Shown here: in pieces, positions 4,706-32,839 of the stretch
How positions within the stretch are numbered: the stretch's first letter is position 1
Layout: each line of letters starts with the position of its first letter
From: Winogradskyella forsetii
GTDB taxonomy: Bacteria > Bacteroidota > Bacteroidia > Flavobacteriales > Flavobacteriaceae
Direction of reading: 5' to 3'
DNA: 64,000 nucleotides
Assembly (NCBI RefSeq): GCF_013394595.1
Contig: NZ_CP053348.1
Location: 2,010,001-2,074,000 of the forward strand
Program-made: the position numbers and the translations under genes
Notes under the pieces: generated by a model
The model's input: only the letters and a program-made list of their open reading frames with translations
Databases searched by the model: none
What the model was told of the DNA's origin: nothing

Positions 4706-7858
<3,153 letters not shown>

Positions 7859-7981
7859 CTAATTGCTATAATTATTTGATAAAAGCAAAGTTATAGAAAT
7901 CACTGGATATATTAAGACTGAAACATTCGGTTTTAAATTGCTTTTTACCTAAACTTATATCATAGTTGAAATAGGTGCACA

Positions 7982-8018
7982 AAAAAACCACTGTAACATA
8001 ACATTACAATGGTTTTTT
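7982..8018 (-). terminator. Intrinsic terminator after the fasciclin gene
   Basis: Two 15-base arms (7982-7996 and 8004-8018) pair with one mismatch around a 7-base loop, and the arms end in runs of A and T, so the hairpin has a U-tract on either strand. It lies 28 bases past the stop of the minus-strand fasciclin gene. Confidence 0.8.
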
Positions 8019-24286: not shown

Positions 24287-25792
24287 TTATGTTTCTACCA
24301 TGTGCTCTGTAAACCTCATAATTATAAATTCTGCAGGTCGTAGTAGCGCCACATAAACTATAACTATCAATCGACCTTCTAAAATATCCTGATTAGTCAT
24401 ACTACTTGCCAATCCGACATTAACGCCGAAGGCTTCATTTGGAGAAGCACCTGCAAGAGCACCTTGCCGCCACTTTTGGTTGAGATAGTTATTGATCATA
24501 TTTTTTATACTGGTCCAAGTGCTGATGTTGTTGGGTTCATAAACATAGGCACGTAAAGCCAGAGAAATAGATTGTTGAAATGTCATTACCGTTCTTTTAA
24601 CATTAACATATCTAAATTCACTATGGTTGCCATCTAAGGTACGGCTTCCCCAAACCAAGGTTCCACGACCTGGGAAAAGTCTAATAGCATTAATGGATTT
24701 GCCTGAAACTGCATCTATGTTTAAATACGCTTGTTCGTTATTAGTTATGTTTACCGCAGGCTTTATTACGGAAGCCACACTAACGTTCGCAGGTGCTTTC
24801 CATACACCTCTTGTGGCATCAACGCTGGTGTATATTCCTGCCATGGCTGGTGAAGGCGGCAGGAGATTCATCAGATTAAGAATGGCTTCTATAACACTAT
24901 GGTAGGTTGGACTCGAAGCCAAAAGTCCTAAATGCAGCGTTTTATCTATTACATTAAAATCAGTAGAGTTTAATGCGGTTTTTATCATGTCACGCGCATT
25001 GGCTTCTGGCAATAATTTTGAAAGACGTTTTAAATCTAAATCAATATGTTCCAAGCTAATCTTGCTCTTATCAAAAATCACGGTGTGCAACCAAGGATAA
25101 TAAGCAGCTCCAAAACTTAAAGCATTAGTTCCTATTTTTGTCCTAAAATTGGTTATGATGTCATTTGTAGTAGATCCATTTGATACTGGCTTATAACCAT
25201 CATGGATATCCAATATGGCCAAACGGTTTTGCATTGTATAACAATGCGTTAAAACGTGTTGGTAAACCTGAAAGCACTCGTCTTCTAAGCTGACAGCATC
25301 AGGAATCACAACTATGGTCGGTTCACTAACTTTTGATAGGTACTTTAGTCCACCTCCAGTGGTGTGCCCTAAAAGTTCTTCAGCAGTAACCTCTAATTGG
25401 GTTTTACCTTCATAGGTTCCAACGGATAAAATGTAGCAGGCTTGTCCGCCATTTGCAAAAAATAATTTGATACTAGGATACATAAACGATTTGGTATGTG
25501 GGTTAAAATCGATGACATAAGCTTTACCATTAAGAAGCGTTGTTGGTCGAGAATCGTTTGGTTCGGGTTCAAAAATATCGAATTTTGATTGGAATGCACC
25601 ACCAAAACAATGCTCGTATTCAGATAGTGTATTAATTTTGAAGGCTTCGTTTTTTAAACTGCTGCCATTGCTCAGCGCTTTTTCGGTATAGCCTATAAAA
25701 ACAGGAATGGCCGTAGGGACTTCGGTTATTGAATTTGGAATTTTCGGGACTTCTTCAACATAAATACCTGGAACTTTATATTTGGCAGCCAT
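24287..25792 (-). CDS. Contractile tail sheath protein
   Basis: Sheath subunit of 501 residues related to phage tail sheaths and to those of extracellular contractile injection systems. The N-terminus KYKVPGIYVEEVPKIPNSI and the C-terminal strand arm IVYVALLRPAEFIIMRFTEHM are the parts that link neighbouring subunits in the contracting helix. The middle carries the variable insertion domain. In SRPs such as PVC or Afp the sheath occurs with tube, baseplate, spike and AAA ATPase genes; here only two tube genes accompany it, 20 bases upstream on the same strand. It could supply a full particle encoded elsewhere or form a cut-down assembly. Confidence 0.9.
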   Translation of the reverse strand: MAAKYKVPGIYVEEVPKIPNSITEVPTAIPVFIGYTEKALSNGSSLKNEAFKINTLSEYEHCFGGAFQSKFDIFEPEPNDSRPTTLLNGKAYVIDFNPHTKSFMYPSIKLFFANGGQACYILSVGTYEGKTQLEVTAEELLGHTTGGGLKYLSKVSEPTIVVIPDAVSLEDECFQVYQHVLTHCYTMQNRLAILDIHDGYKPVSNGSTTNDIITNFRTKIGTNALSFGAAYYPWLHTVIFDKSKISLEHIDLDLKRLSKLLPEANARDMIKTALNSTDFNVIDKTLHLGLLASSPTYHSVIEAILNLMNLLPPSPAMAGIYTSVDATRGVWKAPANVSVASVIKPAVNITNNEQAYLNIDAVSGKSINAIRLFPGRGTLVWGSRTLDGNHSEFRYVNVKRTVMTFQQSISLALRAYVYEPNNISTWTSIKNMINNYLNQKWRQGALAGASPNEAFGVNVGLASSMTNQDILEGRLIVIVYVALLRPAEFIIMRFTEHMVET

Positions 25793-25812
25793 AATAATCT
25801 AGTTTATGATGC

Positions 25813-26256
25813 TTATTCTGAATTTGAAGGTGCAATAATTTTTCCATTGTGATCCAGAACGTAAAAATATTGTGGTTCTAACTCAATAGTTTCAATTAGG
25901 ATTCTGCTTTCTTGGGCATGCAATTCCTCAACGCCCCAAGCCACTGGCATGGCTTTTTCTATTTTCCAGCCACTTAACATTTCATGCTCTGCATTTAGAA
26001 GTTTTACAATGAGATTTACGGGTAATTTTTGCCTTTTTTTTATAACGTCCATACACCATGTCACCAATTTTGAACTGGGTTCATAGGCGCGTTTTAAAAT
26101 GATGTTTCCATAATAAACACGGTCTTTACCGTCCGTTTTATCCACTCTAACCTGAAGTCCTTGCACGGATTGAAAGTTGATATCTGCCATAAGTTCTTTT
26201 CGGTTGAAATGAACCACAAAGTGCATATTTAATGGTGGATAGTTGATTTGTGCCAT
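25813..26256 (-). CDS. Phage tail tube-like protein (gp19 family), copy 2
   Basis: Tube subunit of 147 residues in the T4 gp19-like family. It shows the family pattern of a strand-rich fold with INFQSVQGLQVRVDKTDG near residue 20, where injection-system tubes carry the FxxVsGL motif, and GNIILKRAYEPSS, which corresponds to the tube-stacking strand. It ends with RILIETIELEPQYFYVL, closely matching the neighbouring copy. It begins 2 bases after the stop of the first tube gene, indicating tight co-expression. In extracellular contractile systems the two tube types have different places, one forming the bulk tube and one the tip nearest the baseplate; which is which here is not clear. Confidence 0.88.
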   Translation of the reverse strand: MAQINYPPLNMHFVVHFNRKELMADINFQSVQGLQVRVDKTDGKDRVYYGNIILKRAYEPSSKLVTWCMDVIKKRQKLPVNLIVKLLNAEHEMLSGWKIEKAMPVAWGVEELHAQESRILIETIELEPQYFYVLDHNGKIIAPSNSE

Positions 26257-26258
26257 GA

Positions 26259-26693
26259 TTAGCTACCTAAACGTTGAACTACGAATCCTTCATGCGCAAG
26301 TTCTAAAGTTTCAATTAAAATCTCACTTTTCATACTGTTAAGCTCTGCAAATTCAAAACGAACTGGCCAAGCGTTTTTAACCTGCCAAACAATTGTGGGT
26401 TCATGTTGATGGTCTAGCAATTTAATGGTTATGTCCCGTCGTTCAGCAACCAATCCAACATCATTAAACCATACAAAATTTTCGTTATCATCTTTTAATG
26501 CGCCACGTTTTAAAACGATATTCGAATACTTTCTAAGTCCAGGAATTTTAGTACAGCTATATGCCTTATCTGCACCACTTCGGTATTTTAGGACGTCGTT
26601 TTTTGCTTTGAGACCGCTGACTTCTGAAAAGCCTATTTCAGTAGATCCCAAGTCCACTTGAAAATGAAAATTGACTACGGGTGAATTTGCCAT
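26259..26693 (-). CDS. Phage tail tube-like protein (gp19 family), copy 1
   Basis: Tube subunit of 144 residues, first gene of a three-gene unit with copy 2 and the sheath. The motif IGFSEVSGLKAKNDVLKYR is the classic gp19/Pvc1 signature, and SNIVLKRGALKDDNENFVWF the stacking strand. It ends ILIETLELAHEGFVVQRLGS. The two tube copies are clearly related but diverged, as for the Pvc1/Pvc5 pair of contractile injection systems. No holin, lysin, capsid or baseplate gene is in the window, so this is not a prophage fragment of ordinary kind. Confidence 0.9.
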   Translation of the reverse strand: MANSPVVNFHFQVDLGSTEIGFSEVSGLKAKNDVLKYRSGADKAYSCTKIPGLRKYSNIVLKRGALKDDNENFVWFNDVGLVAERRDITIKLLDHQHEPTIVWQVKNAWPVRFEFAELNSMKSEILIETLELAHEGFVVQRLGS

Positions 26694-27025
26694 AATACAG
26701 ATTTTAGATATTTGTAACTAACTGAATATAAATATACTAAAAATTAACCATTAAGATACAGTAGCTCTGTATTTTCTGATTTTTAATTTGAACAATATTA
26801 TTTAATCCCTTAGCGATAGCCATAAGATTGGCATTAGAATAAAAGCTGTCAAAGCATCCTTTTACCAAGCCTAAACCTTTGTTAAAGGTTCGAAAATAGG
26901 TTTAATTTTATCTATTTTTGAGTAACGGAATGCACAAGTAATATGAAAGTAGTACTGCACAAAAACGTTAATTAGTTTTAAATTCCGCTTCTACGAATTA
27001 ACCATTCCCATAGACTAATAAAAGT
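26694..27025. other. Divergent intergenic region between tail module and oxidoreductase
   Basis: 332 bases, AT-rich, separating divergent genes. On the plus strand TATTTTTG at 26913-26920 matches the -7 consensus TAnnTTTG for the oxidoreductase, but no TTG lies at the right distance upstream. No open frame of note and no inverted repeat was seen. Confidence 0.5.
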
Positions 27026-30490: not shown

Positions 30491-32839
30491 TTAATTAACT
30501 ATAATTTTTTTGACAACGATTCCAGCTCTAAAATTAAGCTTTAAAATATAAATACCACTAGCTAAATAAGCTGTAGATATGTCACTTTCAGCACCTGTAG
30601 CGACTTTTGCTCCAGAAATACTATAAAGGGTATAGTTTTGCAATTTATTATTGCTAGAAGCTAGTATTCTAAATCCACCAGTGGTTGTAATAGTCTTGAT
30701 CTCATTGGCTATTTCAAAATCCGAAACACTTAATGCATCCTCACTTATAGGATTAAAACCAGTCCACAATGCACCAGCATCTGTAACGTATGCTCCCATT
30801 GTACCAGCGGGTATCTGAAGCGCAGTATTGCTACGATCAAAAATAAAAGTATCGTTAGTACCTGTGGTTATAGTTGGAGGTACTATAGCCAACGATGTTA
30901 CACTGGCCAATGATGGATTATTACCAAAAGCAAGCAAACCAATTTCGGTTACGTTACTTGGAATGGTTATGTCAGTAAGGTTATTATCTACAAAAGCACC
31001 AATGCCTATAATATCAACACTATTACCTAGGGAAAGCGTTGTGATAGCATTTGTTGCAAAAGCTGTAGTACCAATAACTGTGACATTATCTGGAATAGTG
31101 ACAGTGGTTAAGCTATTGAGTTCAAAAGCAGAAATTCCGATATTAGTAACACTATCTGGAATAGTTACACTCGTAATACCTCTATTAGCAAATGCGGACT
31201 GTCCGATTTCTGTTACATCAAATACGGTAACAGAAGGAATAGTAATATTGCTAGGAATGGTAACGTTAGTACCATTTGCAGCATCATAATCTGAAACTTT
31301 AAGTGTGGTTGCAGAAGTTGCCTCAAATACCATTTTAAAGCCCGTCCATAATGCACCGCTATCAGTAACATACTCATCAGTAGTATTACCTGTTAGAATT
31401 AAATTTATATTACTGCGACTAGAGTTTGCAAAAGTATCGGCACCACCACCTGTAGTTATATTAGGCGGTGTAGTGCCTAATACAACAACCGTACTTAAAT
31501 TATTCACACCAAAAGCAAGAGGACCTATATTCGCGACGCTTTCTGGTATTATGATACTAGTAAATTGATTATTATTAAATGCATTATTTTTCATATTGAT
31601 AATGCTATTAGGAATAATAACATGAGTTAAATTTTTGCTTGAAAAAGCACCACTACCAATACTGGTAACATCATAAGTTGTAACACTATGAGAAACTATA
31701 GCAGGTATATCAACGACTGTGCCTCCAGCAGTATTATAGTCTACAGCTTCAACCGTATCAGGTAATACAGAAGTAACTTCATAAGTAATAAAATCTACAA
31801 CAAAAGTATCGCCAACTTCTAATACTGCAGCTTCCGTAACTGAATTAAAACCTGTCCAGCCTCCCGAAGCATATGCGGCCGAAGTTCCATTCGGTATGGT
31901 TAAATCAATGGCAGCACGATTCCAAAAAGAATCGTTAATTCCAGGCATAAATATAGTGGCAGGAGTTGTACCTTGCGAAGTAACTGTTGCTAAAGGGTTG
32001 TCTCTAAAAGCGGCAAAATCAATATCAGTAACACTAGCTGGAATAGTAACATGAGTTATGTTATTATCTCGAAATGCGCCATTGCCAATAGTTAACAGAC
32101 TATTGGATAATGTAACACTTGTTATTTGATTACCATTAAATACAGCATTACCAATACTTGTAACACTATTTGGAATTACTATACTTTGAAGTTGATTGCT
32201 TTGAAAAGTACCAAATTCAACACTTGTAAGGTTATTGGAAAGAATAGCGCTAGCTAATTGATTGCCTTGAAAAGCAAACTGACCAATACTAATAACACTA
32301 TTTGGAATTAAAATGTCTATTATTTGATTACCTTGAAAAGCATTATCCCCAATACTTTCCAGACCGTTTTCAAAAGTAACACTAGTTAAATCATTGTTCA
32401 CAAAGGCTGAATTTCCAATGCTCACAACACTATTGGGTATTGTAACAGTTAATAAATTCTGAGCACTAAAGGCATTGTTTCCTATTTCCACAATACTATT
32501 TGGAATTACAACGCTTGTTAATCGTGTACCTTCCGGACCATTATGCTCAAAAGCTAAATTACCAATACTTGTAACATCATAGCTTGTGCTACTATTAGAT
32601 ACTGCTGAAGGAATATCTACATCTGTACCACCATTAGTGTGGTCATAGTCATTAACCCTAAGTGTATTTGGCGCAAGAGAAGTCACTTTGTAAGTTATAA
32701 AATTGTCAACAAAAGTATCGCCAATAGCTTGTGAATAGCCTAGAATAGAAACAAATAGAGCTATTAAAATAAGTGTTTGTTTTTTACCCACGTAATATCT
32801 ATTTTTTAAGTCTTTTGGAAAACATGTAAAGTTTTTCAT
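30491..32839 (-). CDS. BspA-type leucine-rich-repeat protein, type IX secreted
   Basis: Surface or secreted protein of 782 residues. After a signal peptide (KKQTLILIALFVSILGYSQA at about 19-38) come BspA-like LRR_5 repeats of about 23 residues with the pattern SVVIPNSIVEIGNNAFSAQNLL. They are grouped in three blocks, each introduced by a similar strand segment (VDNFITYKVTSLAPNTLRVN; VDFITYEVTSVLPDTVEAVD; VFEATSATTLKVSDYD) and the first two closed by a TTPATIF- or TTPPNIT-type spacer. The last 75 residues, starting LSVSDFEIANEIKTITT and ending YLASGIYILKLNFRAGIVVKKIIVN in part, are a type A T9SS sorting domain. BspA-like repeats often bind host or matrix proteins. Strong support for Bacteroidetes origin. 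Confidence 0.93.
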   Translation of the reverse strand: MKNFTCFPKDLKNRYYVGKKQTLILIALFVSILGYSQAIGDTFVDNFITYKVTSLAPNTLRVNDYDHTNGGTDVDIPSAVSNSSTSYDVTSIGNLAFEHNGPEGTRLTSVVIPNSIVEIGNNAFSAQNLLTVTIPNSVVSIGNSAFVNNDLTSVTFENGLESIGDNAFQGNQIIDILIPNSVISIGQFAFQGNQLASAILSNNLTSVEFGTFQSNQLQSIVIPNSVTSIGNAVFNGNQITSVTLSNSLLTIGNGAFRDNNITHVTIPASVTDIDFAAFRDNPLATVTSQGTTPATIFMPGINDSFWNRAAIDLTIPNGTSAAYASGGWTGFNSVTEAAVLEVGDTFVVDFITYEVTSVLPDTVEAVDYNTAGGTVVDIPAIVSHSVTTYDVTSIGSGAFSSKNLTHVIIPNSIINMKNNAFNNNQFTSIIIPESVANIGPLAFGVNNLSTVVVLGTTPPNITTGGGADTFANSSRSNINLILTGNTTDEYVTDSGALWTGFKMVFEATSATTLKVSDYDAANGTNVTIPSNITIPSVTVFDVTEIGQSAFANRGITSVTIPDSVTNIGISAFELNSLTTVTIPDNVTVIGTTAFATNAITTLSLGNSVDIIGIGAFVDNNLTDITIPSNVTEIGLLAFGNNPSLASVTSLAIVPPTITTGTNDTFIFDRSNTALQIPAGTMGAYVTDAGALWTGFNPISEDALSVSDFEIANEIKTITTTGGFRILASSNNKLQNYTLYSISGAKVATGAESDISTAYLASGIYILKLNFRAGIVVKKIIVN

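Follow-up and report, generated by a model that had tools for sequence, protein, structure and literature searches.

An operon of contractile tube and sheath genes in Winogradskyella forsetii, possibly a domesticated and baseplate-free remnant of an injection system

A 64,000-nucleotide stretch of the Winogradskyella forsetii genome (assembly GCF_013394595.1, contig NZ_CP053348.1, positions 2,010,001 to 2,074,000; hereafter the window, in whose own numbering its coordinates are given) carries an isolated operon of two tube-type genes and one sheath gene related to those of contractile injection systems (CIS). The explanation that we favour, tentatively, is that the operon is a domesticated remnant of a CIS like AlgoCIS, the extracellular CIS (eCIS) of Algoriphagus machipongonensis, kept by selection as a baseplate-free builder of tubes that do not inject. 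The wider proposition, that Flavobacteriaceae hold a dedicated baseplate-independent tube system in which a self-closing, short-loop initiator seeds a Cis1 tube and the sheath is optional, is in our judgement possible though on the whole doubtful; if true, it would be, as far as we have searched, the first contractile-tail derivative kept for tube building rather than injection. To our knowledge, contractile machines start their tube on a baseplate, and a lineage that keeps tube and initiator with no searchable baseplate part and a short docking loop would offer a ready test of tail-tube nucleation. The features concerned are listed below; omega, the ratio of nonsynonymous to synonymous substitution rates, refers to a comparison with the genome of a congener (G429; handles beginning with G denote genomes, those beginning with L denote loci).

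26694..26780, minus strand: conserved leader 5' of tube1 (aligned to the intergenic region of G429)
26259..26693, minus strand: tube1, putative Cis1-type inner tube protein, 144 aa (PF06841, solved chain 7adz_1a, omega 0.16)
25813..26256, minus strand: tube2, putative Cis5-type tube-initiator of a derived short-loop clade, 147 aa (PF06841, Cis5 chains, omega 0.074)
26098..26154, minus strand: shortened-loop site of tube2, residues 35-53 (19 residues; loop count, predicted model)
25816..25863, minus strand: C-terminal tail of tube2, 16 residues (alignment)
24287..25792, minus strand: putative Cis2-type contractile sheath, 501 aa (PF17482, phmmer, fold, omega 0.19)

The first-pass annotation of this DNA had described a tight three-gene unit with gaps of 2 and 20 bases, which the coordinates of the three open reading frames (ORFs) bear out. 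It had also called the first two products gp19-like tubes; both do match PF06841 in profile searches (131.4 bits for tube1 and 74.5 bits for tube2), but the second is better described as a derived tube-initiator of Cis5 type. Among solved chains tube1 is closest to the AlgoCIS tube 7adz_1a (2e-46) and tube2 to AlgoCIS 7aeb_Y (6e-26), and the six top chains for tube2 by sequence (7aeb_Y, All3323, Pvc5, Afp5, 9rce_I and 9qgl_5A) are all read as Cis5-type. A fold search with a single-chain predicted model of tube2 (predicted local distance difference test, pLDDT, 83.9) ranked 7aeb_Y, Afp5, All3323 and Pvc5 first, at a template modelling (TM) score of about 0.6 and a root-mean-square deviation (rmsd) of 7-8 A; it is because Cis5 chains come first by both sequence and fold that tube2 is given this label. 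The third product has the C-terminal sheath domain PF17482 (45.1 bits), its match to PF04984 (27.1 bits) lies under the family cut-off of 31.4, and none of the NCBIfam models fits it. Its closest solved chain by phmmer is 9r9h_T (5e-126), followed by sheaths of the thylakoid-anchored CIS (tCIS) of Anabaena (7b5h) and of AlgoCIS (7adz), and the AlgoCIS sheath ranks first in the fold search (TM about 0.5). Both its N- and C-terminal ends line up with those of full-locus sheaths in an alignment of 15 sheaths, and its earlier assignment to the injection-system type stands. By sequence and predicted fold the operon codes for a tube of Cis1 type, a tube-initiator of Cis5 type and a sheath of Cis2 type, all of the AlgoCIS/tCIS kind. 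Family-specific profiles run against the ORFs of the window (ATG starts, at least 70 aa) match these three genes only, in agreement with the earlier statement that no other system genes lie nearby, and no complete locus adjoins the operon.

The W. forsetii genome (G000) is a single contig of 4,512,651 bases with a completeness of 99.99. The first-pass annotation had proposed a genome-wide search for Pvc8-16-like genes and DUF4255. Profile searches of the genome returned two gp19 matches, both in the operon, and one sheath match, the operon's own. There were no matches to the profiles of gp25 (the Cis9 sheath initiator), the VgrG-type spike (Cis8), the CIS_tube/LysM hub (Cis7, PF19266), the cap Pvc16_N/DUF4255 (PF14065, for which 14 control genomes also gave none) or Baseplate_J (PF04865, Cis11), the last being a weak model for this group. 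The absence of cap, hub, gp25 and spike is solid, since the same models score 119.5, 184, 87 and 251.5 bits respectively on L033, a full locus from a relative. On all these searches together we rejected a full system, of a kind that the models can recognise, at another place in the genome, and with it went the suggestion that the operon supplements such a system, no other component being visible to usable models. Membership of a type VI secretion system (T6SS) was also rejected, the VgrG spike and gp25/TssE being without a match in the genome.

The operon recurs with all three genes in the single-contig genome of the congener G429, flanked as in W. forsetii by an acyl-CoA dehydrogenase gene and an oxidoreductase gene. 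Identity between the two species is 87% for the sheath, 94% for tube2 and 90% for tube1, with omega values of 0.19, 0.074 and 0.16 (five neighbouring genes gave 0.018 to 0.179 in the same comparison) and Fisher tests of synonymous against nonsynonymous change, in the same order, of 4e-24, 4e-13 and 3e-7. The operon measures 2407 bp in both genomes and aligns with 0 gaps; over 317 columns of the intergenic DNA next to it there are 5 gap events, a rate at which 38 would be expected in the operon. This combination of purifying selection with a gap-free 2407 bp shared between congeners leads us to dismiss neutral debris, and a pseudogene or neutral decay in this lineage was rejected on the low omega, the intact frames and the missing gaps. 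The first-pass annotation had given loss of frames in relatives as grounds for abandoning its view; in this near relative all frames are intact, and the three genes are selected as proteins. Elsewhere in the genus, sheath matches were found in 7 of 60 sampled genomes (G000, G429, G433, G405, G406, G415 and G410). Within the stretches examined G433 has a lone sheath, G405 a partial locus and G406 and G415 full loci, and the G410 sheath is read as phage. Four extra frames lie between the sheath and the acyl-CoA dehydrogenase gene in G429 (L079, 3167-8414), and the corresponding place in the window is empty of them.

The tube genes have a wider distribution of their own. In a quick tree of 184 tubes, tube2 belongs to a clade of eight genomes from six genera (G000, G429, G274, G054, G218, G236, G246 and G190; support of 95 in the Shimodaira-Hasegawa-like approximate likelihood ratio test, SH-aLRT), every member of which lies outside full loci. 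Their tube1 partners, that of G246 excepted, form a clade of seven (SH-aLRT 88), and in each of the eight genomes tube1 and tube2 lie side by side. This tree excludes the phage-like tube of G013, the Hcp-like tubes of G156, G337, G198 and G366 and short tubes (up to 110 aa in the first set and up to 125 aa among named loci). The neighbourhoods of the pair vary between genera as judged by eye, and a common neighbour gene as its partner was rejected, none being shared across genera on the same inspection. The hub model PF19266 found nothing in any of the eight pair genomes, and gp25 and spike are absent from the four searched for them (G000, G429, G274 and G190).

The distinguishing character of this lineage is a short loop. 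With conserved Gly-Leu and Leu-Lys-Arg motifs as the end points of the count, the loop that joins strand 2 to strand 3 is 19 residues long in tube2 and 19-23 across the eight pair genomes, against 28-32 in 77 other Cis5-type proteins and 32-34 in 99 Cis1-type proteins (32 in the operon's tube1). By loop length (19-23) and by its place in the clade of eight, the operon belongs to the short-loop tube pair lineage, a lineage of its own that was not visible to the first-pass annotation. The gap falls between the second and third strand, directly before a helix, and the predicted single chain has a tight hairpin (36-41/44-49) at the site; about a third of the strand 2-3 loop has been lost. The C-terminal tail is also long, at 15-24 residues in the eight pair proteins against a median of 5 and a maximum of 22 in the 77 others; it is not diagnostic, because these lengths overlap with those of a few full-locus proteins.

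The shortened stretch is, in our own reading, the beta2-beta3 loop of the tail-tube literature, which is cited here and below for the portions consulted. This loop is the largest inter-ring contact in most tube systems; its deletion abolished tube formation in T5, stopped ring-to-ring growth in SPP1 and gave hexameric rings in YSD1, and it has been proposed to restrain ring formation in solution (PMC8718954). In pyocin and T4 this region is a hairpin through which each subunit reaches two in the disk below it, and loop length is almost constant, at 25-28, among the proteins compared (PMC6088184). By analogy, the only initiator lineage that we found solely outside full loci would be the one in which the part that docks onto the neighbouring ring has shrunk. 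We propose that, whereas the initiator ring of a normal CIS would sit on the hub with its loop docking onto the ring below, shortening of the loop in tube2 would remove this docking face and let the ring close unaided, giving a blunt, self-starting base ring on whose free side tube1, with its normal loop, could stack. In this genus the sheath might then coat the tube or make tubules of its own; polysheaths assemble from sheath protein when both tube and baseplate are lacking (PMC6088184; PMC6357053), and a siphophage tube protein alone yields polytubes (PMC6466441). Lacking spike and baseplate, the product could be neither fired nor aimed, and an injecting particle is not expected, since PVC particles fail to form when single genes for the baseplate, the tube or the sheath initiator are deleted (cited in PMC12210884). 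The product would most likely stay in the cytoplasm as a rod or tube and serve as structure or decoy, comparable to the sheath-protein fibrils reported from Saprospira. The second option offered by the first-pass annotation, a reduced assembly whose use it left undefined, has gained support.

A number of points weigh against this proposal. What is known of the loop was learned from non-contractile phages and is divided, rings having been obtained from YSD1 only, and the loopless SPP1 protein remains monomeric (PMC8718954). Hcp of the T6SS packs into hexameric rings without baseplate components (PMC6088184), and closure of a ring on its own may thus not depend on a short loop. The sheath adjoins the tube pair only in G000 and G429, and there is no sheath match in four of the eight pair genomes (G054, G218, G236 and G246), which were searched for hub and sheath only and not for gp25 or spike; as it stands beside the pair in this genus alone and has no match in half of the genomes, the sheath may be a passenger. 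Both the tube and the sheath tree are quick trees with SH-aLRT support only. Lone sheaths of other genera have omega values of 0.14-0.25 (six of eight pairs, two being undefined; synonymous divergence, dS, exceeds 1.5 in three of the six, and several pairs share a row), compared with 0.03-0.11 for full-locus sheaths (four of five pairs, one undefined; dS above 1.3 in two of the four). Orphan sheaths are constrained, but less so than full-locus sheaths, and the evidence leans to relaxed demands. Finally, Baseplate_J scores only 22.7 bits on the real Cis11 of L033, the Cis12 profile found nothing in the window, the part of the genome to which it was applied, and the absence claims exclude the tape measure and AAA ATPase, for which no genome search was made. 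These last points are also what can be said for a full system hidden elsewhere in the genome, with a baseplate and spike too diverged for the models, especially as Baseplate_J misses several full loci (for example those of G113, G289, G080, G077 and G325) and Cis12, tape measure and ATPase lay outside the scope of the G000 search. We consider such a system very improbable, because the gp25, spike, hub and cap models that score so highly on L033 find nothing in G000, and the loop that would be expected to dock on a hub is reduced.

A rival explanation is that the operon is a late remnant of a full CIS that has decayed, sheath and tubes being the last to go and kept by chance or by a fading function. 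Orphan sheaths do evolve faster than full-locus sheaths, and loss seems to be frequent. On a tree of 110 sheaths the orphan label needs 17 changes, and at least 13 when counted by starred branches; shuffled labels need a mean of 28, and in 0 of 500 shuffles was the number as low as 17. With so many changes, orphan sheaths seem to have arisen many times, some lineages persisting. The label describes the locus and not the genome, 'base' standing for any spike, gp25, Cis11 or Cis12 at the locus (partial loci such as that of G405 included); the window and L079-L083 were labelled by hand, and the 'orphan' label of L120 (two rows), which has almost no downstream flank, is doubtful. Excluded from the tree were the phage-like sheath of G013, named loci of up to 12 kb, L088 (a duplicate of G173) and short sheaths (up to 350 aa in the first set and up to 330 aa among named loci). 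In this tree the operon sheath forms a clade of four with those of G429, G433 and Arcticiflavibacter luteus (L085), with an SH-aLRT of 98, and all four are orphan at their locus, L085 being judged from 21.5 kb.

There are also apparent cases of reduction in place. Cognataquiflexum aquatile (L089) has a full locus after a run of genes that is colinear with Aquiflexum sp. TKW24L (L087). Homology of L087 to L089 breaks off beyond the last gene that the two have in common, starts again inside the first seven sheath codons (taking GTG 9986 as the start) and ends exactly at the Cis5 stop codon (12555 vs 13009). The likely direction is that L087 is a full system cut down in place to sheath, tube and initiator, in this instance in another family; its Cis5 retains the full-length loop, as expected of a recent reduction. 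The possibility that the Aquiflexum sheath is broken was rejected, as it is open in one frame with a likely GTG start. By gene order and size, the sheath of G274 (L053) is missing at the matching site of G054 (L249). Truncated remnants occur in G143, G156 and G189, and one tube of G254 has a stop; a sheath fragment in G253 was rejected as a remnant because the contig ends there. Even so, we regard a late remnant as unlikely here. The operon is under purifying selection with a gap-free alignment in this lineage, 32 of 32 orphan or partial sheaths (all chosen as long matches) align in one frame, and the tube pair is a single lineage with a shared derived loop rather than scattered debris.

Searches of phage and plasmid sequences bear on two further alternatives. 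The sheath matches 247 phage records, none of which covers 80% of it; the ten phage rows listed align to its last 38-40% at 28-35% identity, and its best whole-length match among viral contigs is 30%. Tube2 has no tblastn match in 50,697 phage records, and its matches on 30 plasmid records are all below 60% identity, the five listed being below 33%. Origin from a phage or prophage tail was rejected, neither sheath nor tube2 having a near phage match. Another possibility is that the operon interferes with other machines, loose tube, initiator and sheath subunits spoiling contractile phage tails or rival CIS and so serving as a decoy in defence. A ring of initiator unable to dock on one side would cap growing tubes, and a ring without a docking face could act as a natural chain terminator. 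The lone sheath of the congener G433 (L080) adjoins, by eye, type I restriction genes, which would suit such a role. However, with partial phage matches to the sheath and none to tube2, co-assembly with known phages is doubtful, and the operon sits amid housekeeping genes, so that we hold interference to be decidedly improbable. We give next to no credence to the idea that the operon is a parts kit which lends tube and sheath to a mobile element or satellite with a baseplate of its own. Nothing direct speaks for it beyond the partial sets of relatives (sheath, tubes, spike and PAAR without wedges, as in G405 L083 and G168 L065); the operon occupies the same chromosomal place in two species with no recognised mobile genes near, and the phage and plasmid results for tube2 offer no close partner.

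Sheaths separated from a baseplate are not confined to this genus. In the family set of 397 genomes a sheath match occurs in 70 and a gp19 match in 75, with 66 having both, 9 having tubes and no sheath match (gp25 status was not part of this comparison) and 318 having neither (Fisher 3e-14, shared descent uncontrolled). Full loci in the family follow the order cap, cap adaptor, sheath, Cis1, Cis5, LysM hub, spike, PAAR, gp25, Cis11, Cis12. A CIS-type gp25 is missing from 15 of the 70 sheath genomes (G000, G045, G143, G168, G173, G190, G233, G254, G257, G274, G335, G339, G345, G366 and G373), a count that leaves out the phage-like sheath genomes G048, G185 and G356 and includes G366, whose only match, of 39 bits, is on a different contig from its CIS genes. 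The spike is also absent in 13 of these 15, and 12 retain one or more tube genes, which in seven genomes (G045, G173, G190, G254, G335, G339 and G345) are found solely at a site apart from the sheath. A first scan of named genomes with the single sheath sequence found no relative; of the best 80 of 523 candidate loci in named genomes that were used, 25 show no spike, gp25, Cis11 or Cis12, and as in nine of these the contig is short or a flank is cut off, 16 are informative, mostly from Bacteroidota.

Among known systems the operon most resembles AlgoCIS, an eCIS of subtype Ib, whose tube, Alg5-type and sheath chains are homologues of the three products; Alg1, Alg5 and Alg2 have the tube, tube-initiator and sheath roles there (PMC8894135). 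It differs in that its genome has no match for counterparts of the Alg7 hub, Alg8 spike, Alg9 gp25 and Alg16A cap, in the shortened initiator loop and in gene order, which is tube-initiator-sheath in the operon and sheath-tube-initiator in related full loci. The sheath and tubes also match All3325, All3324 and All3323 of the tCIS, whose baseplate is a solved structure (7b5h), whereas no baseplate part was found in the operon genome. The Saprospira cytoplasmic fibril protein (SCFP) may be a parallel, being a Bacteroidota sheath-type protein reported to make up fibrils inside the cell (PMC3486910; PMC4122934); the fibril gene cluster is related to Afp/PVC (PMC4122934), and a full CIS may make such fibrils. 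Polysheaths and polytubes of phage proteins illustrate that sheath or tube alone can build long tubules (PMC6357053; PMC6466441), although these are recombinant products and here the reduced set is natural. Orphan T6SS islands (hcp, vgrG and/or PAAR) likewise place tube-type genes outside a full system, and 929 of them have been described on plasmids, often independent of full systems (PMC13098142); their tubes are of a different family, and the operon genome has no VgrG match. Our literature search, which left outside it most subscription papers and bioRxiv, brought up no paper recognised as describing Bacteroidota tube pairs that stand alone or CIS sheaths on their own. A 2025 metagenome survey left out clusters that lacked genes for the baseplate, the tube or the sheath initiator (PMC12210884) and, because baseplate genes were demanded, could not report genes of this kind. 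Orphan sheaths recur across Bacteroidota and would be missed by surveys with such a requirement, and perhaps the reuse of syringe parts by bacteria for other ends is undercounted.

Several smaller observations concern lone tubes, lone sheaths and partial loci. A lone orphan tube1 in matching gene order is found at L045, L049 and L255 (G173, G348 and G339, of two genera), and the tube1 of G335 clusters with those of G173 and G339 (SH-aLRT 97). At L051 and L066 (G345 and G168), away from the locus of the sheath, the gene after a tube pair encodes a protein of 413 aa that matches the CIS_tube/LysM hub model at 106 bits. At L046 (G190, 5013-8003), L048, L042 and L115 a lone sheath stands beside a lipoprotein-like gene and a gene of about 105 aa, these genes falling into two sequence sets, L046/L048 and L042/L115, with no relation to each other. 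The next gene in G190 encodes an N-acetylmuramidase that carries a peptidoglycan-binding domain (PF11860, PF01471). The neighbours look like a lysis or release cassette. Lone sheaths also occur in Algoriphagus and Cyclobacterium species (L093/L094/L096/L098; L152/L155; L107/L109), with neighbours that are similar within each set. The first 67 sheath residues at L067 of G143 (5959-7453) lie in frame inside a cap-adaptor ORF, making this a truncated remnant, and adjoin a split cap gene and a muramidase-like gene. The partial locus of G405 (L083, 1979-10708) has cap, cap adaptor, sheath, two tubes, spike, PAAR, tape measure (PF19268) and AAA ATPase, with no gp25 or wedge genes in the stretch examined and no gp25 or LysM hub genome-wide. 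Together with L065, L050 and L164 it holds partial CIS genes at what is apparently one shared site, from the sheath alone up to cap, sheath, tubes, spike and PAAR, and the four look like a reduction series, L164 being judged from gene sizes. Next to the site are what we take to be a YqeY-like gene and a second gene that is like FtsZ or of its size. Within the window itself, positions 30491-32839 encode a secreted-looking protein of 782 aa with repeated motifs and, by eye, a sorting-like C-terminal tail.

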